Source: Coffea arabica
Lineage: Eukaryota; Streptophyta; Magnoliopsida; Gentianales; Rubiaceae
Assembly (NCBI RefSeq): GCF_036785885.1
Contig: NC_092326.1
Location: forward strand, 39,642,287-39,706,286
DNA: 64,000 bases
Direction: 5' to 3'
Below the pieces are notes generated by a model, which saw only the letters and a program-made list of their open reading frames with translations, had not been told where the DNA came from and made no database searches. Below, one piece after another: positions 3,926 to 34,700 of the stretch (position 1 is the first letter of the stretch; each line of letters opens with the position of its first letter). A program made the position numbers and the translations under genes.

Positions 3926-6900
3926 ATGTCTTCCGATCCCGACAAGTTGATCGCAAAAGCCGATAAACTGTCAGTCTCCAAACCCCTCTCTCCCTAGCAT
4001 TGATATTTGTATTTGCAGAAAAAGTTTGTTACTCAACGAAATACAGATACGGGTGATGTGATTCTCGAATATTTACAGCTGAATTTGATATCCTGACATT
4101 TCTCAATTCATCGGAGAATGATTGAGAAACGAGGGAGAATTCTGTTATTATTATTATTATTATTATTATTTTGTGTGGTCTTCTTGAAGCTGATCTAAGT
4201 TTTTTGGGACGAGAATAATAATGTTGCCGATTTCGGCATTTTTATGTGGTTTGGCTACTGGACTAGTTGAAATGTTCTTGAGATGGATAATGCGAGTATT
4301 GTGTTCAATTTGGACGCGAACTTTGTGGATTAGGAGTAGGAATTCTATCGTGACCAGTGAACATCTTCTGAATCGTAATTTGTAGTGACTGGAAATCATG
4401 AGCTGTTTTTAATACTGCTTTTTGGTTTTTGGAGTTTGTGCATTTTCCGATCTCGATTCCATGTAAATAAATTTGAAGGGTGGAATTAGGAAATTTACAT
4501 TTTAGGAAATGTCAATTTCAAACATTTATGGTGGATGTTTCCGATTGCAGAAAAATAGCACTAGTACTGAATTTGATTCTTCATGATACATAATATGCTC
4601 AGCTAGAGACTCTTCTATATGAGAATTCTCAGCTCATACGGGATTTCTTGGAGATGGAAATGAAGAAAAAAAATTTACAATATTTTATATACGAACTGTA
4701 TATGAATCGCGTTGCTTATATTGTATGTCAAACTCAATGTTTGATTTTATGATTCTCATGTCAGAATGGAGATATTATTTTTAAGTTATATGTATAATGG
4801 ACATTTTTTGCAATCTAACTTACTTGCATACGGATTTTGTAGAACAAAACTTAGTTTAACTAGATGGAGTGCTGATTGGAAAAGTGCCACAGTTTTGTAT
4901 GAGCAGGCAGGTAGTTTTCCAATTTTAACTATCATTCCATGGCATAATAAGAAGTTTAAATACTAGTTACTCGTCGTGTGTTTTCTGGATGTTTACTTTG
5001 TTTTTATTTTTGTTTTGTTTTGTAGCTAATGCATTTAGGCTGTCAAAAAAGCATGAGAAAGCAAAAGAGGCATTTGAGAAAGCTTCCAAGGGACAGGAGA
5101 TGTTATCTTCATATCCTGTCTATGACTACTATTTCTGAATTTTCATATTTTTTTACATTCCGCTTCCTTGACTCGTAAATTAGACCTTGGGATGCTGCTA
5201 AACATATGGAATCTGCTGCTACTGTGGCTAAAGAACTAGGAAACTGGCGTGAAGTTGCTGACTTTTATAGACGTGCATCTGAGTTATACATTGAATGTGG
5301 ACGGTCACAACCTGCATCAGATGCACTTGCTAAGGGTGCTCGGTAAGCAATGATTTCTTGCTGGACTATAATTTTTTTCTACTTTGTTAGGTATACTTAT
5401 TTTCATTTTTCATGGATTTTTTTCTCATAATAAATTAAACATATTGTTCAAAGTGTCTCCTTCATGTAATGCATATTAGAGCCCCCCGGGGGGTGGGGGG
5501 TGTGTGTGTGCGTGTGTCTTTTGTTGTGTCTAATATAGTTGCATTTCTGCAGCTGTTTCAAGTTGAACGTGCTAAAAAGCGATGGATATTCATAGCTGTA
5601 CAGAGTTATAGTTGAAATTTATACTTCAGAACTTGGTCCTTTTATGTTATGCCACAATCCAATAACACTAGAAGAAGCTAACTATGTGTTTAAATTTTTT
5701 TCTTTTGTTCAATCTAGCTGAAATACTTAACTGTCCTAGAAGGAGTGGTATTACATTTCACTGGTGTAGGAAATTGGCTTTGTCATATGGGTCAACTTAT
5801 GGATCGACCTATCTGTATGTTATTTTGGATACAGATCTGAGCCCATCTTCCTTCAAATCTATTCTGATCATTATGGATTGTGTTCATATTGGGTGGCTGG
5901 TCATGTTAGATTAACAGGGATCATATTGAGTAGGTGGTCATGTTAGAATCACCAGGGAGGAGAAAAAGGGAGGTAGGAGTAGAGTTCGGGGAAGTGATGC
6001 TTGATCACCCACTAGAAGTTCTTACTTTAATGGATGCTTTGGCTTGTATCTTTCTTTGCTGCAAACCTTGCACAACAACTTTCATTTTCTTCTATTGCTT
6101 CTGCAACTTTATCTTCTACCCTTGATTTTGAGGCATTTGTTGCATTTAACATCTAGAAGGATTTATTGCATGAATTGGTACTTTCTATGAGAGTTCTTTT
6201 AGAAAGAAGCAACTCTTACAAATGTATGGCTATTCGAAAGAGAAATTTCCTTGTAATTTTCCCGGAGTCAAATATACACTACTAGCTACTTGGGGGATGA
6301 TATCCTTTTCCTTTTTGTGCCTCTTTTCTTTCTTTTTTCATATTTAATAACCTTTTGCACAGTTTAAAGAAAGGTAAATTTATGACAGTGCTTTAGAAGA
6401 TGCTCTGCCTGAGGATGCTGTCAAGCTATATATTGATGCTTGTGAAACTCTTGAGGAGGACGGCAAGGAACAAATGGCCTTTGACTTATATCGTGCCGCT
6501 GCTAGTGTCTATTTGAAACTTGAAAAGTAAGAGGGCCTTCGTTCATTTTAAGTTAATAAATCTGAGTGATTACTGTTGATTGTTGAGTCTCTCTTCAACT
6601 CTTTTTTTAGTTCTCATGTCTAAGCACTAAGTGATACCAAATCTGAAACTTTTAAGTTAATCCTTTTTTTTCGAATTATTTGTTGGTTTATGCTGTTAAT
6701 TTATGAATGGAAACCGTGACTTTTGGCAAATATAAGGTGTGTTGCATTTTCGCCATAGCAAAATACATCCCTGACACCTCTATTTTGGTTCCTCTCATGC
6801 AACCTTTTCTGTCATCAGGTGACTATGTGAAGTATAAATGATAAGTAAAAAAATTTAATAACATTTTTGGGGAGGATTCATGTAGTTCAAGTAAAACTTG

Positions 6901-9900
6901 CCATTTTACTCCATAGAACCTGAAAATACTTGAATGGGGGATGCTTCTGAACATAAATTCCTAGAGGCCTTGTTAGGTTTTTACAAATTTGAGAAGTTAG
7001 TCTTTTTTTTCCCCTCATCTTTAAGATGGATAGCAGATGATGGTGTTGCTTTAAATCTTCGAGCTAATTGTTTATTCCTTTCATCTTGACGTGGAAGTTT
7101 GGTGAGTTGTGAAAACATGTAATACTCGAATACAAATTGGGAATGTGTGGCAAAGTAGGGAACATGTGGAACCCTGACAACTGATTTTGAAACTATGTAG
7201 ACATGATGATGAAAAGTTAAAGTTTTTGAGGTATTAAGCAATTATAAGCGAATGTGAGTCATTGAAAGTTGTACTGCTAAGTGAAAATAGTTGGTAGTAT
7301 AAGAATACAAAAGAAAATCAAGATTCTCAAGAACGTCATGAGTTAAGCCTCAAAGGTCTGAAGCATTTATCACATAACAACGTAATAAAACATTTTAGTA
7401 GTTATTGTGTCATAACTCATAACCATACTTATTAACATGACTTTTATCCAAGAATTGTATGTGCAAGTAATTCGTCGGCTCTCATCTTCCACAGGTATAC
7501 AGATGCAGCAACTGTTCTGTTGAGATGGGCATTGGCAGCAGATAAATGTAATGCAACTCATAGTCAATGCAAGGTATGAAGGTTTTTAGCATTTACCTTT
7601 CACCTCTAGACACCAAGCATATTTCTTGCTTTTACTCAGTGAAACTTTAGACATTTCGTGTCAACTGTCAATTGATTGTTTGCGTCAAACATCTTTGCAA
7701 GTGTATGTTCTTTTTTAAATAATACAATTAACCATTTTCTCTTGTCTTTGCGAGTCCTGATGTTCCAGTTAATCCTTCTTTGATAATGTTATCTATTAAT
7801 CTCGTATAAATGTAAATTTCTAATAATGAGTTAGGAAGAGGTTAGCCATTTGGGTGTTATGTGATCTTTGAAGGGTGGTTGAGATTGAGAAGAAATTGAA
7901 GTGTGAAAGCCAGGCACCTAAAACATAATATTGGGGAAAGAGCAATCTCAGTTTTTCTAAAAGCGGTGTATGCATATATAATGGCTGCGAAGACAAAAGT
8001 TATCCTAAGTCTAGGGTGCTCACCAACTTCTTTTCCTAAATTTTTTAGTGGTTGGAGCATCATTTTCTTCAATGAGTTGATGCCATTTAATTTGAGCCAC
8101 AATCTTGCAGATCCTTAGGTTTCCTTAGATGATGTGAGCTCAGAATTGAAGACATTAAGTTTGAAGGTAGCCCTAATACTTGGATTATCTAGCTGTTTGT
8201 TGAGGGTCAAGGTTCCTTTAGGTCTGGGTGATCTTCATCCTAAAGGTGGTGCTGTGGCCTGTTGATTCCCATAGGCTAATTTCAACCTGATCTGCACGTA
8301 TAGTTACATATTTAACTCTTATTCTTTTGTGACATCATCAGCAATCTTGTGATATGCAGAAAGCATGATCTTTCCCTGAATACCATCTTATATCTCAGTG
8401 AAGTCATGGAAAATCTAATGCTTTTAGTGTTTCTTTGTGAAACAGGGGAGATGTTCTCAGCCTATTTTATTGTGTGGACTGTGGACAATGCTGTAGTAGT
8501 TAACTCGTTGCTCATATTGTTAGCCTAAAGTATCAAAGTCAAACAAGATATATACAAGCAAAAACAGAACATGGTTCCTATAACGTTTCTCTTTGATAAT
8601 CCTCAATGACATTCCTATGACAGATTGCCGTTGGGTCTGAGATAGAGAAGGATATAAAAATTTAGGTTCTTATTTGTGAACTTTTGAGGGATTGCTGGCA
8701 CAAATGGCTGGTCTTGATAAAGAGATCCCTAGGTTATTGATCCCATGCATGCACACATATTGGCAGTTTTACTAATAACTTGATTCCAGACTGTCAAAGG
8801 CTTTCGTCATTTGTGAACCCAAGTAAATCTGTTTTTCTTTTTTTTTTTTGGGGTGTCATTAAATGTTTGATGATGACTAATTAGTTGCATAGCTTCAGCT
8901 AAATTTTGTGAATATCTTGCGTGTTACTGAATTTTGCTATATCTTGTAACTTCAGGTCGCACTTGTGCATCTAATATTTGTATTTGAATTTGTGTAAAGG
9001 ATTGTATTCCACTTTTAGAATTGAAGTTGACATGTCTGATTTGGTTCTAGGCTTATCTCAGTGCCATCATTGTATACCTTTATGCTCATGACTTCCAGCA
9101 AGCAGAGAAGTGCCACAATGATTGTTGCCAGTACGTTCAAATTCTAATTTTTTGCATCATTCACAACACCTCAAATCCTGGCATAGAACAAGTTTTTTTT
9201 TTTCCTTTCTATTTTTTAAATTTCTTAGTTAAGAGTTTTCTTGTTTTCTTAGCTTTCAGTTTTTCAAGTAGCACATTCTCCTTTATGACTGTTTAGCTGA
9301 CATGCATGCCAAAGAAAGAAAGAACAGGTAAAACGGTAAAGGAATAAATGGTTCGAAAAGGAAACTAACAGAATAGAAGAATCAAACGTTCAGAGTTGTC
9401 AATTTCCTTCAAGTAATTGTACGCATGTACACCATTTAATATGAATTAAGATCTCTTCAATCACTGTTTTATCAGAAAGGTTTAGCTCATATAGGACAGA
9501 GAATTTACATTGTCATATATCTTGTATTGGCCTCTCCTATGTGGGCTGGATTTGTTTTACCTGGTCAGATATTCAGCAGACTGGGGTGGGAGAAAGTATT
9601 GTGATTATATGAATTTCCTTTGTTGGATTAACTCTTAAACTTCTAACATGAAGGATTTGAGCCTTTTTAAATGTTTGTACATTTCATCAATACCAAAGAA
9701 AACCCAATCCTTTCTTAGCAGTCCTTTACCAGAATTTTCTTATGAACTTGTCATTATTGGCTCTTCTTTTGCAGGATTGAAGCTTTCTTGAACAGTGATC
9801 AAAATCGTTGTGCCAATAGACTTCTTTCTGCTTATTCTGACGGGGATGTGGAGGAAATCAAACGGGTGGCTCAATCAAGCACTATTTCCAATCTAGACCA

Positions 9901-10736
9901 CGCGGTAATCCATCTTTTCAGTTTATTCCGCACCATCTGATGGCAGGGGCGGAGGGAAGGGGGTCCAATTGTTAAAAAAAAAAATTTTCTAAGTAAAAAA
10001 ATTTTTTTAATATTGTTTTGCCCCCCCAAATATTGATAAAAAATTTCACTTTGCCCCCCTTCCAATTGTTATAAAAAAATTTCTAAGTAAAAAAAATTTT
10101 TCTTATATTGTTTTGCCCCCCCCCCCCAAAATATTGATAAAAAATTTCACTTTACCCCCTCCTAAGGACCCAAATAATAATGTTTGAAAGTTATTTGGAC
10201 TTTGTCCAAATAACAGAGACTCGCCCCCCCTAATTGCAATTCCTAGCTCCGCCACTGTGACTGATGGTGTCTATGCATTGGGCTATAAAATCACCAAAAC
10301 GTCTTTGTCTGCTTCAAAATGATGGAATATATTAGCCTTGATTTTTCATGGACGGTTAGGTGTGGTGTCTAGAAAAAATAATTAGGATTCAAACTGTCCC
10401 ACTCCCACGGTTATTTTTATGCATTTATATATACTTCATTGGCGTGTCCTCATTTGTTGGATGTCATGGTAGTTGTATCGACAAGTAAGAAAGGAACTGG
10501 GGGTAGAAATTATTGGTACCGCAAATGACATAAACACAAATTTGCTATTTGAAAAAATCATGCAATTTTTTACATGGTCTTATTGTTGTGTGGATATAGA
10601 GGTTTGGAAGAACTTTTTGACAGTGTTACTGCTGCAGATCATCAGGCATGCTCGGAAATTGCCGATGGGTGATGTGACTTCGTTGAAGGGTGCTGCCCCA
10701 GAAGAAGAGCCCTTAGATGAAGATGATCTTACCTAG
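3926..10736 (+). CDS. GSNAP: Gamma-soluble NSF attachment protein (gamma-SNAP)
   Basis: Nine exons: 3926-3969, 4843-4910, 5026-5110, 5184-5342, 6389-6526, 7495-7573, 9051-9130, 9775-9904 and 10638-10736. They sum to 882 nt, a 293-residue protein, close to the Arabidopsis protein as I recall it. It starts MSSDPDKLIAKADKL and ends in the acidic tail EEEPLDEDDLT. The body is a series of TPR-like helical hairpins, recognisable as RWSADWKSA, SSPWDAAKHMESAA, FYRRASELY and STISNLDHA. SNAPs are cytosolic adaptors that bind SNARE bundles and recruit the NSF ATPase so that SNAREs are recycled after membrane fusion; gamma-SNAP is the divergent isoform. Eight introns separate the exons; seven are GT-AG, while intron 3 (5111-5183) carries U12-type AT-AG signals. 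Intron 8 contains a small transposon. Confidence 0.96.
5111..5183 (+). other. U12-type AT-AG intron in gamma-SNAP
   Basis: Only removing 5111-5183 (73 nt) keeps the conserved reading ...MLSS-PWDAAKHMES... in frame. The intron starts ATATCCTG, one base from the minor-spliceosome 5' consensus ATATCCTT. It carries TTCCTTGAC at 5164-5172, one base from the U12 branch consensus TTCCTTAAC, with the branch A about 12 nt before the terminal TAG. The nearby GT at 5118 would shift the frame. The splice signals are seen directly; use of the minor spliceosome is inferred from them. Confidence 0.88.
9944..10257. mobile_element. Short non-autonomous DNA transposon (MITE-like) in gamma-SNAP intron 8
   Basis: The left end CAGGGGCGGAG and the right end CTCCGCCACTG form imperfect terminal inverted repeats of about 10 bp with hAT-like CAG..CTG termini. 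CTGATGG flanks the left end directly (9937-9943) and recurs three bases after the right end (10261-10267), so a target duplication is likely but not exact. There is no coding capacity. The interior is made of C-runs and A/T-runs plus a 97-bp tandem duplication. Superfamily assignment is tentative. Confidence 0.6.
9965..10159. repeat. Two tandem copies of a ~97-bp unit inside the intronic MITE
   Basis: CCAATTGTT begins at 9965 and again at 10062. Each is followed by the same order of blocks: A-run, TTTCTAAGTAA, T-run, TATTGTTTTGCCCCCC, ATATTGATAAAAAATTTCA. The copies differ mainly in homopolymer length. Confidence 0.75.
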
Positions 10737-11493: not shown

Positions 11494-11530
11494 GGGTTCG
11501 TTTGGATTGACAGTTTTTTCAAAAACTGTT
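11494..11530 (+). repeat. Left terminal inverted repeat of the Harbinger element
   Basis: GGGTTCGTTTGGATTGACAG is followed by a short palindrome, ACAG-T6-CAAAAACTGT, at 11510-11529. It pairs imperfectly with the right end near 16890-16926. Confidence 0.7.
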
Positions 11531-13152
11531 TTTGTCTTTGAGAAACAACACTTATTGATAAGTAAGTCTACAGTGGGTCTTTAATAAAACTGCGACGTTT
11601 TTGGCAAAATAGCCAATTGTCTTGTTTTTGGCTTTCCTTTGCCGACGCTACTTTACCAAATTGCCTTCTGTGCTGAACGCGAAGACATATTCAGAACAGG
11701 GACCAGTCAGGAGCTTGTGCAAAGTACTCCTCCGAAGCACCATTGCCGGCCATCGAGAGGCGAAATTATGAGTAATCGAAGCAGATTTTAGCTCGCAACC
11801 TTCGATTCCAACCTCCTTCAGCTCGCGACTTCACTTCCAAACCTCCTCTGAGCTCCAACCCCCTCTTCGATCTTCGATCCATCTTGCTAGTACGCCCCTC
11901 TTTGAGATGTGACCTTGTCTGCAAGAGCCCATCATCGCGCTTCAATCCATCAGGATCTTAACCCCCTTTCACAGCGAACAACACATCTCGAGTGACTGGC
12001 AGCTCCAACCCGTCTTCGCCCTTCGATGTACTGTTAAGGTTATGTTTCTAAGGCATTTTGCGACTTTCACTTTACTGTTCTTGCTGCGTATTGTAAAGAA
12101 TAATGTGTGGGATGTTCAAAATTTGATGTCCGGAAGCCCCAAAAATTTGACTGTGAGGTCAAAATTTGTGCGCTGCTTTCAATTTTCCAAATCATCACAT
12201 TTAGAGGTGTTGGACAGTAGAGTTACAGATTAGTTGTGCAGAGTATTGTGGTGGATGAACCAAGTCTCGGCAATGCTGAAAATGAACCATGAAAAATTGA
12301 GCTGGTTTGAATATTGAGACGATAAACTGGCCATGCTCTGAATTCAATGTCAGATTTCATTTTTCAAAATATTGAGAAAGTGGATGACCACAATACGGCA
12401 TTGACTTCAATTCATATGAGTTGGTCATGAATTTTGAAGGGTGCTGTTTTGTCGGAGTTGGTGGTTGTATTCGATAGTCCTTATATAAATTTACCAAGAT
12501 TGAGATTCATTAGAATTGCCTAAATTCAGTGAATGAAGCATATGTTTGTGCTTCTGATGGAAATTACATGGAGAACTTGTGCTTCTGATTGTGCTTTGGC
12601 ATATTATTGCCCCCATGAGTGTGTCTCGCTTTGTTGAAATGCGACTGCAGTCATGTTTTCATATTATTGTAGCATTAATTCTTGTGTTTTTACCCCAAAA
12701 TGAACTCTCTGATGCTATTTCTGTGATTTTAAATTGTCTTCTCCGGCTATAAATGAGATTGGTATCTGCAGTCTAACTTCATACTGCTGTTTGGTGCTAC
12801 AAAACAGGGTAGGTTGGTGTTTTCATTGCCGTTCTCTAAAGTTACATGCCCCCTATTACCCGCCGTGCTTCCAAAGGTAGTTTGCGTGGTTCTGACTCTG
12901 TTTACTGCCTTGTTTAGTGCGACTAATTTTGACTCGTATGCAAACACAGCATTGAAGACGAAAAATTGTGACAGTCCAAGGGGATCCAACTCAGCTTGGG
13001 GGGAAAACGATTTACAAACGTGCATTTCTAACTACTACAAGGTAATACCTGCTAGTCCTCTACTTTCGCTACTTATTATTTCATCTCTGTTTTGTCCCGC
13101 CGATAGTATAAGTACCAACGTGTCTGATTGCCTTTGTTTATGGATTAATAAG
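11531..13152 (+). other. 5' region of the Harbinger element
   Basis: About 1.6 kb of leader or promoter sequence precedes ORF1. A CT-rich, less AT-rich block runs from 11640 to 12030. Frames such as 12042-12233 match nothing I know. The ORF1 frame stays open upstream to 12814, but there is no ATG supporting that longer start. Confidence 0.5.
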
Positions 13153-14245
13153 ATGAGAAAACAAAGGCGCAATCCAGGTGGACAGAAATTTTATTTCACT
13201 AGGAAGCAGGAAATAGAAATTGCTGAGCGCCTAGTCAGCATGCATAGAGCTAGTGAAATTAGGGACAATAATATTGGTAGCTACGTGGTTCCCGAAATTC
13301 AACAGCAGTTGAACAGCCAATTTGGCACATCGTTCACTTGGGACAGCATAAGAGCCAAATACTATGCCTTGCGAGAACTTACCAAGCTGTACATTGGCTT
13401 CAAGAGGCGGGAAACGGGACTGGGTTGGGATAGCCAGAACTTTACCTGGCTCATGGACGATAGCAAGTGGGCTGAGCTTGCACAGGTATTTTTTGTCAAG
13501 TAAACTGTTTTTATATCAATTTAATGGCTGTTAAAAGTTAATCAGATTATACGTGCAACTCCCTCAAATATCCTTTTGACTGTGTTTTTTTTTTTGTCAG
13601 GTGAACCCAAAATTTTTAAAATTTCAAGATGACTGCACCGTCTACCACTTGCTTGAGGAGGTTTTTGTCAACCAAGGAGCAACGGGAGATTTCAGCGCTG
13701 GCTTTGAGAACGAGCCCCGTACTTCACCCGAGGAGAGATACATGGAGAACCTTGCCCGATCGTCACGGGGAAAGGGAAGGTTGGATGCTGTGCATGAGGG
13801 TGTTCAAACTGAGTTAGCAGGAGCAAATGAAGCGAAAGGGAGAAAGGGCAAAGGAAAGCGAAAATCGGGGGACATGTCAAGCGGTAGTCCTATGTCCACC
13901 GCCTCCCATTCTGATAGGTACATGAAGGCTCTTGACACCATTGAGTCCCTGGTTAGTCGCCATAAGAGCAGCAGCATGGGCGTGTCAGTCAGTTCTCCGG
14001 ACAAGCAGTGTTCCGGCCGCGGTGGCCCGACCAAAACCACCTATGAAGTTGCCATGGATCAACTTCGGGGAATGGAGAACATTTCATACGCCTCCAAAAT
14101 GGCCGTGGCTGAAATATTGAAGGATAAGCAAGAGCTGGCCATTTGGAATTTAGCAAAATCGGACGCCGACCGCATCACATTTATGAAAACGAAAGGCTGT
14201 TTCCCACCTGATACGCAGGAGCCCCCTCCCCCACCTCCGTTCTAG
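13153..14245 (+). CDS. Harbinger ORF1: Myb/SANT-like DNA-binding protein
   Basis: Two exons, 13153-13485 and 13601-14245, with a GT-AG intron in phase 0, encode 325 residues. I chose the ATG at 13153 (MRKQRRNPGGQKFYF) because it lies just before the domain; the frame extends upstream only with non-ATG codons. Residues about 12-125 (from FTRKQEIEIAERL through FKRRETGLGWD and the WAELAQ / VNPKFLKF junction) match the Myb/SANT-like domain of plant transposon ORF1 proteins. A basic, low-complexity region follows (KGRKGKGKRKSGD), then a helical C-terminal part and a proline-rich end. In PIF/Harbinger elements this protein works with the transposase, helping nuclear import and binding to element ends. 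No stop or frameshift interrupts it. Confidence 0.85.
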
Positions 14246-15107
14246 GCGTTTCATTTCCATCGGGAGCTTGTATCTGAGACTTGAGTTGTTGACTTACTTT
14301 CTTTATAGCCAACTCAGCTTGTTGTAGCATTTGCTACCGATACATTTGAGTGTTTTTTTTTCAGAGGTGTTGTGATTTGTCTATTTGGATTCTGGCCCCG
14401 TACTGGCCATGAGTTTGTTCAGTTTTTATTGCATTCGGCTGGAGTTGTTGGGTTTTTATTATTATTGATGATGTGTTTGTGGCATTGACTGTCTTGGTTA
14501 ATTTCTAAATTCAGGGGGGCTTTGTGTCCATGAATGCCCTGGATATGATATGTCGAAACGCAGGATTTGAGTTAATTGTGTTTGGTCCTCTGTTGGTTGC
14601 TATTTAAAACCATGAGTAGTATATATTTTTGGGGATGACTTTGTGGGATAATTTCTAAGGATAGGATTAGGAATGTGGTGCTAGTTTTCATTAACAACAG
14701 GTTACTCGTTTTAAGGCATTTGTTCATAGCTACAAATGTTGTGAACTGAAATGGCAAAGTAAAATGCTGTCCTAAGGTATATGATTGGCCAGGTTTTGTT
14801 GTTGTCCAAATATTCACTTATTGGCTTGTTAGTAGCTGTCTTGACTTGAAATCTTATTCACTGTGATGAATATATATTCCAAGAGCTATTGCCATATTAC
14901 TAGCTATCATGTGGTGGATTTTTTTTTTTTCAGATTTGTTGCCTGAACTAGCACATAAGCTGCCTTCTTGATTTGCTGATGCTATATAGCTATTTGCCAG
15001 TATGCTTTAATTAGGAGATAATGGCGTTGTTGTTGATCATGCCTTTTGAAAATAGCCTTTTTTCTCAGGATCACGAGTGACTTTGGCTGCCGAGATCACA
15101 TTTGGAA
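14246..15107 (+). other. Spacer between ORF1 and transposase
   Basis: AT-rich, with no coding signal. It presumably holds the ORF1 3' end and the transposase promoter. No terminator motif can be assigned. Confidence 0.5.
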
Positions 15108-16498
15108 ATGGAGTATGAGCATTATTTGCAAGGTGGGGATTTCTTCGACGAAGGAGATGAGGAGGAGATACTTTTGACCTTCACCTACTTTGTGCTTGTT
15201 GGATTGGCTCTGTTCGACCCATACCTAAACCCTGTGGAACGCCGACGAATTCGAGATGGTGCACAGTCGGGTGCTCAATGGGTTGTAGAACTCATAAACG
15301 GCCATCGAGACAGAATATTCGACAACCTTCGAATGGAAGCTTCGCTTTTCCTCCAGTTATGTGATTTGTTGATTGAGAGGGGCTATTGGGAGCCCCACCC
15401 GACAGGACGGGTAGGCATTCACGAGTCTCTCGCCATTTGCCTTCTTTGCTTGAGTCATAACGAGCGACATAGGGTGCTAGCCGAGAGATTCCAACGCACA
15501 ACCGAGACCACAGACCGTCATCTTCGACGATGCCTTCGATCTCTCGTTCGCTTGGGACGTGATTTTGTCCAGCCGATAGATTATCACACGACGAATCCAA
15601 GAATACAGAACAGTGCTACGTTTTGGCCATGGTTTAAGGTTAGGGATATTTTGTGAAATCTCTTATTAATTATAATCTATAGGAGACTGAACGTCTACTT
15701 ATTGTGATTAGGATTGTGTTGGAGCTATTGATGGAACGCATGTTTCAGCTTGGTGTAGAGCTGAAGACAGGGAGCGTTATCGGAATAGGCATGGCGGCTT
15801 ATCGCAAAATATATTAGCAGTGTGTGATCATAATATGCGATTCACTTATGTCAGGGTAGGGTGGGAGGGTAGCGCACATGATTCTAGGATCTTAAAAGAT
15901 GTCTTACTTGATCCTAATTGTGCTTTTCCATGGCCACCAGAAGGTAATTTGGGTATTAAATCATCCATTTGGAATTTATCGCATGACTTTTCTTAAAACA
16001 TTTATAGTAATATTTATAATGCACTTAACTATAATTACATTGTGTGCAGGGAAGTATTATGCGGTGGATGCGGCATACACGAACATGCCAGGATTTATGG
16101 CTCCCTTTAGGGGTGCACGGGGAACCCAACAGGAGCGGGCAGCAAGAACACTTTTCAACAGACGCCATGCATCGTTACGGAATATTATAGAACGCACGTT
16201 TGGTGTTCTTAAGAAGCGATTTCCGATACTTAAGGGCCCCATGCAGAACTATTTGATGGCGACACAGAATAATATTGTCCTGGCTTGCTGTGCATTGCAC
16301 AACTTTATGCGCGATAATGTCCCGAATGACGCATATTTTGTTGAAGAAGAGAATATTGCAGCACAGGCAGATAATATAAATCATGTGGTGGACCAAATGG
16401 CCGGTGCAGAACCACTGGATATGTCGCCTCAAGGAATTGCTGGTTGGAATGAATTCAGGAGCGGCTTGGCAAACAGCATGTACTATCACCAACATTAG
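15108..16498 (+). CDS. PIF/Harbinger transposase (DDE superfamily nuclease)
   Basis: Three exons, 15108-15638, 15712-15943 and 16050-16498, with GT-AG introns, sum to 1212 nt and 403 residues. The start is the ATG at 15108. The N-terminal half has the helical region usual in these transposases (ESLAICLLCLSHNERHR, then a QRTTETTDRHL helix-turn-helix-like stretch). The C-terminal half is the DDE_Tnp_4 fold, with GAIDGTH (D184), GSAHDSRIL (D234), YYAVDAAYTNMPGF (D261) and NIIERTFGVLKKRFPIL (E302). D184, D261 and E302 are the likely catalytic triad. It would cut at the element's inverted ends and reinsert it. All key residues and the whole frame are intact, so activity is possible, but expression is unknown. 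Confidence 0.92.
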
Positions 16499-16750
16499 TA
16501 GCTCCATTTTGTCGTTATCTATTTTGTAGCTTTTGTAACTAGTTGGCGGATTGCGAATGGCAAACTTTTTCCCTAATGGTTCCACGGTGGCTATTGTATA
16601 TGACATGTACACTTATGTAAAATCTCTATCTATTAATCTATAGTTTTAATTATACCAGTGTTGTACTGATAAAGTATTTTGTTGAATGAAATTTATTGAT
16701 TTTTTTAATTACCAATTTGAATGAATGTTTTTCGAAAATAGCTAAAAAAA

Positions 16751-16850
16751 AGCTTGTTTTTGAAAAACAAGCTGTTTTTCAAAAACAGATAATCCAAACA
16801 AGTTTGTTTTTGAAAAACAAGCTGTTTCTCAAAAACAGCTAATCCAAACA
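16751..16850. repeat. Two tandem 50-bp palindromic subterminal repeats
   Basis: Units 16751-16800 and 16801-16850 are identical at 47 of 50 positions. Each contains two abutting palindromes, AGCTTGTTTTT-G-AAAAACAAGCT and CTGTTTTT-C-AAAAACAG, then the terminal-repeat motif AATCCAAACA. A further partial copy continues toward the right end. Subterminal repeats of this sort are often transposase binding sites; that role is inferred here. Confidence 0.85.
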
Positions 16851-16889
16851 ACATTTGCTGTTTTTCAAAAAATGAATAGTATAGTTTTT

Positions 16890-16926
16890 AAAAAAACAAC
16901 CCCAAAAACAGCTAATCCAAGCGGAT
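16890..16926 (-). repeat. Right terminal inverted repeat of the Harbinger element
   Basis: Read on the minus strand it begins GATCCGCTTGGATTAGCTGT, matching the left end at TTGGATT and in the following CAG/CTG plus T-run block. Confidence 0.65.
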
Positions 16927-17105
16927 CAGGAATTTTTTGAGAAAATTTGTTTATATTTTTCGTGAACATATTTTTAAATTTTTTTATTATATATATATGT
17001 GTATGTGTCAAATAATTACATTATAATTTGTTATAAAAGCTTTAAAAGTTAACAATACAAATGAGTACGAACAACAATTATTTCACTAAATAACAATATT
17101 TCATG

Positions 17106-17955
17106 TAGAGGGGGGCGGAATGGGCGGGATTTGCTTGGGTTTGAAATAGAACCGAGTCATATGGACTTGGGTTTTGGGACTAACTTGGGCGGGATCACTT
17201 TGGGATGGTTTAGATTGATCCCGTCTAATACCCAAATATATTTTCTACATATTTTTTTCCTTTAATTCATTTTTTATTTTTTATTTATTAAATTTCTTTT
17301 AGTTTTGTTAAATAAACATGCAAGTGCTTTATACTCAAGATTCCCACCAAAATTTGGATTAACAAATAAAGGAAAAGATAGATATACAGCCATATTCCAA
17401 CATATATCAAGATGGTCATGGTACTTAGGGTGTTGAACATTTATTCTCATCATTGTCCAAGGATGGCAGGTCTAAATTGACTGAAATGCTGGAAATTCTT
17501 GTGGATAATGACTAGGAAGACTACTAGATTATATTCGCTGATATAATTATAAAAATTGTTAAAAATAATATTTGAATCTAAGACTCCGTTTGGATTGGCT
17601 ATTTTTTCAAAAAATAAGTTTTTCAAATACAATGTTACCGTAATATTCAATAACTCAAAAAACATTCCATCCATATTAGCATATCAAATATTTAAAAAAA
17701 AAATTTATAGTAAAAATTTTTTATATACACTGCTACAATAAAATATTTTAAAAACATATCTCAAAAACAGCTAATCCAAACAGAGCGCTTGCTATTTGAG
17801 CCCAATGGGTACCCAAGTGTTTCCCAAAATTTTCCATCAATTAATGGGTACAATTGAAATTTGTCCCATTTTAAATCCAATATCAAATTTCAGTACCCAT
17901 CCCGCCCAATGGGCATAGATAATCCATTGAGAATTGGGACAAATTGTCACCTCTA
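17106..17955. mobile_element. Non-autonomous hAT-like element with 8-bp target duplication
   Basis: ATTTCATG occurs exactly at 17098-17105 and 17956-17963, directly flanking TAGAGG at the left end and CCTCTA at the right end. An 8-bp duplication and short inverted ends are the hAT signature. The subterminal regions are GC-rich with GGGCGGGAT-type and CCCGCCCAATGGG-type repeats in opposite orientation. No transposase is encoded. A second, unrelated element is nested at about 17583-17787. Confidence 0.8.
17583..17787. mobile_element. ~205-bp MITE with Harbinger-like ends, nested in the hAT-like element
   Basis: The left end (17583 on) reads CTCCGTTTGGATTGGCTATT, and the right end on the opposite strand reads CGCTCTGTTTGGATTAGCTG. 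The two are inverted repeats of about 22 bp. They share GTTTGGATT and the CAAAAACAGCTAATCC block with the Harbinger element 650 bp upstream. The interior is AT-rich and non-coding. No clear target duplication was found. Confidence 0.7.
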
Positions 17956-18475
17956 ATTTCATGTAATTTGAAATATGATGTGATTCTTGTTCATATAAAT
18001 TATTCCTAGTATTCTATTGTTCTACTTCTATATCACGGATTTGCTCCACATATATGCCTTTTATTTATTTATTTTTTTTGGAAAAGGGTATTAAATATTA
18101 AGACTAATGAGTAGGTGTAAATCTTGAAAAATGCATTGCTTTAGTTCAAAGCATGAAAGTAAGGAATAGAAGGAATGTGAAAAAGATTTTAGGGTCATTT
18201 TAGTAATTCCATAAATTTCCAATAATGACGACATCAGTAACTACATTATTGCTTTTTCGTCTACGTCTCTTCCCACCTTCCCCTGTCCTCCACCCATAAA
18301 GCTATAAATAACAAAGTCCTCTTTCTCTTTCTCTCTCATCGACCAAACAAATACGAGTTGAGGTACTCATCATTTCGGCTTCATCAATCTCTCGCATTTT
18401 TAGGGCTTTATTTCTTCATCTGCAGCTGCTTATAATTTTTTTGTATCGTATATCTACAGCCGGAGAGACAGAGAA
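17956..18475 (+). other. ARIADNE promoter and 5' UTR region
   Basis: AT-rich upstream DNA with a TATA element at 18303-18310. It is followed by a CT-rich stretch (18320-18345) typical of plant transcription start regions, and about 130 bases of leader before the ATG at 18476. Confidence 0.55.
18303..18310 (+). promoter_or_regulatory. TATA box of the ARIADNE gene
   Basis: TATAAATA lies about 170 bp before the start codon and is followed by a CT-rich tract. A transcription start near 18335-18345 is inferred. Confidence 0.55.
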
Positions 18476-31757: not shown

Positions 31758-34700
31758 TTAGAGAAGACTTGCCTTAAAATGCACCCAACAAATTGCCAAA
31801 GAAACTACCAGGAGTATGTTTCTAGTCCACCTCTCTGAGGAAAGGAATTGTGATCTGTTATGTCTGCCATCACTAGATGGTGCATATCCCCTTATTTCTG
31901 ATTGATTTTCTTCTTTTTTCTTTCCTGAGAGTGAAAGAAGATAATCACGATATCTTCCCCTTTCAGCAGCCAATCCCCCAATTACCACTATTGCAGGCAG
32001 GACCACAAAAAACAGATGTGGAAGAACGACAACCATTATGTCTGGAAACCCAAGAAATTCTAAATTCCCATTCTTGCTGGGTTTCAAAACCCAGCCTTTG
32101 TAAGTCATGTACCCCCTTTCTTTGCCATCTGTAAACACTTGGCCAAAAAGCCAAGGACATAATATGAGGTAAAACAAGTAAGCCACCAAACAGCCCCACA
32201 GGATTGGAATATTATACAGCTCTGTGAAAATCCAAGCCAGACAATTTACGAATCCTCTATTGGCTATGTAATGCTTGTAACTGTAGTGCCTTCTAGAGAA
32301 AAAGAGTAAAATTTTTGGAACAAGAATGGTAGACAGAACAAGAAAATAGAAGGACCAGAATATCGGGAAATAGAGCGCAGCCCAATGACAACCCATCAGG
32401 ATAAACTCTTTCCAGCTCCACGAAAGCTTGGCATGAAGACCATTTATAGAGAATGGTCTCAGTTCACTCAAAGTTGATCTACCCAAATTATCTATAGCCT
32501 CTATTTGCAGCAAATATCTCTCAGGAGATGGATCCTCAAAAGCCTTAAAATTCCAAGGGGCACAGTACAGATCTCCCCTAGAAGAGGTACTCTCCAACTT
32601 TCTAAGAGATGTCTCCACCACCTCAAGAAGATATCCAGGCCTTGAGTCATAGATCCTAGCCACAACTGACACAATTGGAGAAGCAGAAAATACCAGAACT
32701 CTAATAGTCTCATATAATGAAAGATCCATTGAGTCACAATTATGCTTGTGATATGATGCTGCCATAAAGCGTGAGTCCAGTGGAAATGTTGGCAGTATGA
32801 TAGTGTTTTTAGCCCCCAACTTATAGTCAATGTCAATAAATGATATATGACCTCTATCAATGGCCAAGATGCGCATGGCTCTACTCTTCCTCCAGTCACC
32901 CATTTCCCACTCCCAAAATTCTTCCACAGATGTCAATCCATCTGAACAATCTTTTCTATTATCGGAAGGTATTGTATTTGCATTGAACTGGATCATTTTA
33001 TGAGGGTATAAAGGATGAATGGATTCATGACGCCGTTTTAAATTCTTACCAAATTTTGTATGCAGATGGCCACATATGTAAGCTGATAAGGAGTGCAGTA
33101 GAAACACATCCTCTAATGTGTTTCCAGAAGACGAGGCTGCAGAAAAAGAAAGGGGAAAATGACCAAAGGAAATCTTGGTTATTGGTTCGGCAGACTGAGA
33201 ATCCCACTTTCTGAGTGCAGAACTTAGTTGACTCAATAATTCATCCGTTGGATGGCCAAAAAAGTTAGTTGGGCCTCGCAATCCTGAAGATGATGTGGTG
33301 TCAATCCCAGCAAAAAGAAGCTTTCTTTCACCAGTCTGGATGATTACATACGCCATGAAAGCTATGAGAATACAGTAAAAGGCAATAAAAGTAACCTATC
33401 TCAATGGCATGGTAGCACTACTACAAAAGAGTAAACCAACATAGATATCACCTAGCTCCAAACCTTTCATTGACATTTGGAAAATGAAAGACATATGAAG
33501 TAGATGATCACTGATAAAATGAGTAGTAGAAAAGTGAGTGTATATTTAAGAATGACAAACTGAGAAGAAAATTATCATTTATGCTTACTTCTTAGGATCT
33601 GCAATTGGAAAAAATATAGTACGGAGCAGCCATCTGCACATTAAAAATTTTACTGGTTTATCGAACCATCTCAAAAATTAGATTACTAATCTCCAATTTC
33701 CTGGTTTATTAAAAAATTTAAGCTTCTCAATTTTTCAAAAATTATAAGTTTTGCCTTTGCAGACTGAAAGAATTTATATGACACACCTGCTTTGACACTG
33801 CAAGGGATGGTAAGAATATAGAATAAGAGATCCAGGCCTCAAAATCCCACTATATGTCCCAGGAACAACCAGTATTAACATGAAGCAAACATGACATGAC
33901 ATGACATATATAAAGGACATTATCTACAAAATATGATTACAAGGAAGATGGCATGCAAGCTGCCGCAGTAGAATGGTGACAGCAAACAGGATAATTACCT
34001 GAATGATGATGCTATCAACTGGGCCATTTCTCCCCAGTTGCCCGTTGAGGCTATATCTAGAGAAGAAATCAGATGGGCCACCAAAAGATGATACACCAAA
34101 ATTGTCGTGATTCCCTCTAAGGTCATGGAAGATGCTCTTGTTAAGTCCACTTCTTCTGACAACATCTTCCATGATATTCTGGTATTCAATCCACTCTTCT
34201 TTATCTTGCTTCGTTGTTAGTAAATCTTTGCTTTTCCCATCTAACAAAATTCACGCATAAGAAGTAAATAAGTCGCCATACTAGCAAAAAGAGTTGCATT
34301 GTTCTACTCAATTCAAGAGATTATTGAATCACAATCTCAACTAGGCCAGCTAAATAGCATATGAAGACTTCATTTCTGAACTCTAGCTTAAATGAAAGAA
34401 ATGGCTCATGAACGGGACTTTGACATCCTTTTTTGGAAGATGGACCTAACGTAAGCTTTATCAAAATAAAATAGAAAATCCAACACGTTCAAATCACTTA
34501 ACAGGGATGTCAGAACCAATTTATTCATGTTTCAACTGCATGCGTTCTGCAATATAATTGACAGAATTTTAATTCTCAATCAGTTTATCAACAAAATCAC
34601 TTCCAACAGCCAATTAACAGTCAAAACTACCACCCTTGCAAATGTTTTCTTCAGAAAAACTATCATATTCTCAAGGTAATAAATTAGTTGTTCAAACATA

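Follow-up and report, generated by a model that had tools for sequence, protein, structure and literature searches.

The gamma-SNAP gene carried by this 64,000-nucleotide stretch of Coffea arabica DNA (the window) has a 73-nt third intron that by its sequence is U12-type with AT-AG ends, and the homeologous gene on another chromosome has the same intron with GT-AG ends. We infer the splicing from frame and homology and the direction of the change from comparing the two copies, and consider it quite likely that a U12-type intron 3 is present in both homeologues, that a G to A change at its first base (+1) gave the window copy its AT-AG ends, and that this copy is probably still spliced to the same protein.

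A putative U12-type AT-AG intron in gamma-SNAP

The coding part of the gene occupies positions 3926-10736 on the + strand in nine exons (3926-3969, 4843-4910, 5026-5110, 5184-5342, 6389-6526, 7495-7573, 9051-9130, 9775-9904 and 10638-10736), which join into an 882-nt coding sequence for 293 amino acids with no internal stops. In a profile search this product matches PF14938 (E = 4.1e-26, 92.5 bits), and it matches zebrafish gamma-SNAP (2IFU) with E = 1.4e-27 and 100.1 bits but alpha-SNAP far more poorly (E = 5.7e-4, at most 22.6 bits). These matches place the gene in the SNAP family and, by best match, in its gamma branch, supporting the identification made in an earlier note on this DNA. Elsewhere in the window, the - strand holds at 31758-33395 an open reading frame for TMEM62-like Ig-like and C-terminal domains (PF24384, PF24394), and an Rfam scan of all 64 kb returned no matches.

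Intron 3 (5111-5183, + strand) reads ATATCCTG...TTCCTTGACTCGTAAATTAG. Its 5' splice site, ATATCCTG at 5111-5118, agrees with RTATCCTT at seven of eight positions, the exception being a G at +8 where the consensus has T. The putative branch site, TTCCTTGAC at 5164-5172, agrees with TTCCTTRAY at all nine positions and sets the branch A at 5171, 12 nt before the end of the intron, which closes with the AG at 5182-5183. The earlier note had given the same coordinates, letters and 5' score, all of which are correct, and had counted eight of nine matches at the branch site against a stricter consensus. The other seven introns of the gene are GT-AG, and agree at no more than 5/8 positions with the 5' motif and 5/9 with the branch motif.

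Motif pairs of this kind are by themselves common in the window, a loose scan (ends AG or AC, 50-1500 nt) finding 23 on the + strand, intron 3 included, and 27 on the - strand, and it is therefore the reading frame that carries the case for 5111-5183. When junctions between exons 3 and 4 were listed for seven terminal pairs and introns of at least 29 nt, 147 of them kept the frame open, and only AT at 5111 with AG at 5183 yielded exactly GQEMLSSPWDAAK. The exons then join in phase 2 as TCT TC|A CCT TGG, which reads GQEMLSS-PWDAAK. As had been claimed for splicing at C/AT and TAG/A, the 293-residue gamma-SNAP is thereby left intact, and 2IFU aligns across the junction without gaps. The MLSS letters themselves are hardly conserved in 2IFU, so that the length of the alignment, rather than identity, supports the junction. 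At a junction already set by the frame, moreover, both motifs would occur together by chance with a probability of about 2e-5, since in 2 Mb of first-order Markov sequence modelled on the window the probability of at least 7/8 agreement at the 5' end given AT is 0.0060, and that of a branch site with at least 8/9 agreement 10-14 nt before an AG is 0.0033. On the real + strand, 7 of 3901 AG dinucleotides have a branch site of at least 8/9 at that distance.

A GT at 5102-5103 (+ strand) could form, with the AG at 5182-5183, an in-frame GT-AG intron of 82 nt that replaces MLSS by I and leaves a product of 290 residues, three fewer. We regard it as very improbable that the major spliceosome removes 5102-5183, even though this intron is in frame and has GT-AG ends, because its context, GAT|GTTATC, is without the features usual at U2 sites (judged by eye, unscored), its product would no longer align gaplessly to zebrafish gamma-SNAP, and the U12 branch motif would have to be a coincidence. 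It is nevertheless plausibly the alternative that a gene finder would favour, and thus a likely annotation trap, which makes reasonable the earlier remark that programs demanding GT-AG would mis-annotate this exon. On frame and homology, the AG at 5183, rather than this GT-AG pair or the AC that lies just beyond, appears to be needed for the full protein.

A GT-AG counterpart on the homeologous chromosome

A protein search of the whole genome (131 contigs, 1,197,963,845 bases; C1 to C22 of 40-77 Mb each, C23 to C25 below 0.1 Mb) found two loci only, with ten exon matches between them, one on C17, which contains the window, and one on C18. Neighbouring contigs share sequence in all five pairs compared (C1/C2, C3/C4, C11/C12, C17/C18 and C19/C20), and the C18 copy is collinear with most of the window; in aligned pieces of at least 500 bases, 55,998 bases altogether, substitutions amount to 2.3%. 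As collinear copies on paired chromosomes at subgenome divergence, the two gamma-SNAP genes are a homeologous pair; the parental species are placed 4-6 million years apart in PMC11018527. Allelic heterozygosity was rejected as the source of the two copies, the assembly (C. arabica ET-39, HiFi) being described in the same source as that of a di-haploid line and identity between the aligned copies extending over at most 366 bases at a stretch. By length, C17 (44.25 Mb) and C18 (41.45 Mb) correspond to Chr09C (44.61 Mb) and Chr09E (40.98 Mb) of C. arabica Kona Typica as listed in PMC12307819, with a summed misfit of 0.83 Mb compared to 6.43 Mb when swapped. The other chromosomes but one fit these lengths worse, the worst being chromosome 11 (45.8 + 62.7 versus 43.9 + 47.3). 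Judged from the size of chromosome 9 alone, it is rather probable that the window copy lies on the canephora-derived subgenome.

Intron 3 on C18 agrees with that of the window in position, phase, 73-nt length, TTCCTTGAC motif and branch distance; it ends in TTAG and starts with GTATCCTG. Five of the 73 bases differ between the copies, namely 5111, which is A here and G on C18, and 5140, 5160, 5161 and 5174; none of the latter four falls within the 5' site, the branch motif or the AG. To judge from these letters, the C18 intron would be an ordinary GT-AG U12-type intron; the U12-type intron seems common to both homeologues, and the AT-AG ending, found only in the window copy, looks recent. The earlier reading of a U12-type AT-AG intron is thus supported by frame, homology, motifs and the 73-nt GT-AG counterpart as regards the window, but its AT-AG ending is missing from the homeologue.

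Two further features of the locus were also seen in this comparison. Intron 8 of the window gene contains at 9944-10260 an insertion of about 320 bp that is absent from the C18 homeologue; it has CTGATGG at each flank and ends CAGGGGCGGAG / CTCCGCCACTG, and resembles a small terminal-inverted-repeat element. Directly downstream of the gene, about 6.5 kb (11494-18020) is without collinearity to C18; DDE_Tnp_4 (PF13359, E = 6.3e-9) is matched by a reading frame within it, perhaps from a PIF/Harbinger-like transposon.

The coding regions of the two homeologues are both intact and differ at six of 882 nt, five of the differences being synonymous and one R/K, with a pN/pS of 0.055. If the +1 change were partly disabling, the AC at 5184-5185 (+ strand) might be preferred, giving a 75-nt AT-AC intron, a frameshift and nonsense-mediated decay, or intron 3 might be retained, with the GT-AG homeologue supplying the protein. 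The AC lies two bases past the AG and 14 nt from the branch A, the stop would come after 70 amino acids with the AC and after 74 with retention, five coding introns lie downstream, and AT-AG is described as disfavoured in PMC3584512. We consider this outcome unlikely, however, because 14 nt is beyond the optimum of 11-13 nt given in that review and the AG comes earlier, at 12 nt, and because the window coding region is intact at this pN/pS, although the time may have been too short for decay.

Direction of the change at the first intron base

On C18, the G that opens the intron follows an exonic C, so that a CpG spans the exon-intron border. Transitions between C17 and C18 are about ten times commoner at CpG bases (161 of 1684) than at others (541 of 53,662; 55,346 aligned bases together), a figure somewhat raised by counting a site as CpG if it is so in either copy. 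CG to CA is a frequent direction of such change. A table in PMC7367187 gives GT-AG a share of 73-86% among the U12 introns of four plants, and non-canonical termini make up about 4% of orthologous plant minor introns, almost 75% of those being AT-AA (PMC10639083), which bears out the rarity that the earlier note had ascribed to AT-AG.

Since GT-AG is the main plant form, AT-AG is rare and the +1 G of the GT copy lies in a CpG, the AT-AG ends most likely arose by a single G to A change at +1 in the window copy, a direction drawn from the two copies, the rarity of AT-AG and the CpG. Deamination of the CpG at the border, TTC|G to TTC|A, would most likely have turned a GT-AG U12 intron into an AT-AG one. 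The reverse course, from an ancestral AT-AG (or AT-AC) intron to GT-AG in the C18 copy, seems to us quite unlikely; two copies cannot by themselves polarise a change, but the plant frequencies cited above, the usual direction from CG to CA and the raised CpG transition rate between the copies all speak against it. That the A at 5111 stands in error for the G of the homeologue, through faulty assembly or base calling, we regard as extremely improbable. Only one base is concerned and it is seen in the assembly alone, but the assembly was built from a di-haploid line with HiFi reads (PMC11018527) and intron 3 differs from its homeologue at four further places, which implies that the window locus is not a collapsed copy.

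snRNA genes and predicted duplexes

Searches of the genome gave ten U6atac, four U11 and two U12 matches over the gathering score, together with six exon matches to CENATAC on C7 and C8, and on these genes the species appears to have a minor spliceosome. Extra copies of U6atac lie over the gathering score, among them, on C9 and C10 alike, a second, partial one at a distance of about 6 kb from the best; on C9 the stretch covers 278808-285084. A pattern for short AT-AC U12 introns, run over the whole genome, returned 15 matches versus 15 in the reversed control, so that this tally counted noise.

Pairing was predicted with two U11 forms, one U6atac and one U12 taken from the genome. The U12 snRNA carries GAGUAAGGAA, which is predicted to pair with UUCCUUGACUC with one purine bulged at -13.5 kcal/mol; of 3900 AG sites on the + strand, two, intron 3 included, have a predicted U12 duplex as strong. 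The predicted energy for the C18 copy is -8.4 kcal/mol. Two bases past the branch motif, at 5174, the window has C where C18 has A, which lengthens the predicted U12 pairing in the AT-AG copy. This difference could be compensatory or could be due to chance, and we keep the compensatory reading as a lead only, because the five differences in the 73 bases of intron 3 are no clear excess over the 181 in 5535 aligned bases of the gamma-SNAP introns.

At the 5' site, the predicted U11 pairing in the window copy covers +3 to +7 (or +2 to +7). The predicted energies with the two U11 forms are -4.8 and -6.4 kcal/mol for the A copy versus -7.3 and -7.6 kcal/mol for the GT copy, the A copy being weaker because the GT copy gains pairs that include, with the first U11 form, the +1 G and the exonic C at -1. 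With U6atac the predicted duplex of the A copy is slightly weaker (-7.0 versus -7.6 kcal/mol), and in its unconstrained form the outer pairs over +1 are not considered reliable. Predictions for other introns reach -10.4 kcal/mol with U6atac (intron 1) and -4.8 kcal/mol with U11 (intron 5), and 5' duplexes alone therefore do not mark intron 3 as U12-type.

Discussion

The change at +1 would leave the core contacts as they are, U11 and U6atac pairing with UCCU (+4 to +7) and U12 with UUCCUUGAC. It would alter the contact with U11-48K, which according to PMC7367187 reads +1 to +3, together with a few outer RNA pairs in the predictions, and the meeting of the first and last intron bases in the second step of splicing. 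Splicing probably still takes out intron 3 and leaves the protein unchanged, possibly at lower efficiency; AT-AG is called poorly spliced in the review cited above (PMC3584512). The suggestion of the earlier note that slow splicing could limit gamma-SNAP expression stands as a hypothesis. In human cells, AT-AN minor introns, AT-AG included, are reported to need CENATAC (PMC8280824), and in Arabidopsis AT-AC introns require DROL1, the orthologue of a CENATAC partner (cited in PMC11039992). By extension, the window intron should depend on CENATAC and DROL1, the factors for AT-starting minor introns. It is possible, if somewhat doubtful, that the two homeologues can be controlled separately by the state of the minor spliceosome, the window copy as an A-type intron through CENATAC/DROL1 and the C18 copy as a G-type intron, with some window transcripts spliced to the AC at 5185 and then decayed.

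The pair bears on how the minor spliceosome discriminates A-type from G-type introns; the selectivity of CENATAC/DROL1 has so far been compared, in the portions of the literature available to us, between classes made up of different introns. In coffee, one intron with an unchanged position and branch motif would be available with either A or G at +1, and the transcripts of the two genes are separable by six coding differences, so that the pair amounts to a natural splicing experiment. In addition, the AT-AG copy may represent an intermediate step in the switching of U12 subtypes, which a review considers rare, possibly because forms like AT-AG splice poorly (PMC3584512). What the comparison adds is a matched homeologous pair that differs at +1 and encodes nearly identical proteins. 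In the literature searched we found no report joining gamma-SNAP with a U12-type intron or the minor spliceosome, and none joining the minor spliceosome, a plant and a subgenome. At4g20410, which we take to be the Arabidopsis gamma-SNAP, does not occur among the matches listed, and Coffea is likewise absent from the matches listed in another search. In the accessible portion of PMC2426677, the terms SNAP, NAPG and At4g20410 give no matches.

Compared to plant GT-AG U12-type introns, coffee intron 3 has in common the 5' TATCC and the TTCCTTRAY branch site near the 3' end, but its first base is A instead of G. With the CENATAC-dependent AT-AN (A-type) introns it shares the 5' AT, in a genome with CENATAC genes on C7 and C8. 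AT-AG introns are already known in humans, and the coffee intron is therefore not the first of its kind. RNA editing enters into some of the human cases, and we know of no nuclear ADAR in plants. According to the available text of PMC4176328, human NUP210 and CRYZL1 have AT-AG U12-like introns whose AT is edited A-to-I to GT, and human ACTR10 has an AT-AG intron, so that AT-AG termini are common to these introns and to coffee intron 3. The ACTR10 intron, whose class is left unstated in that text, starts with AT in some primates and with GT in other mammals; in coffee, by comparison, the A and G states are found within one genome, as homeologues.
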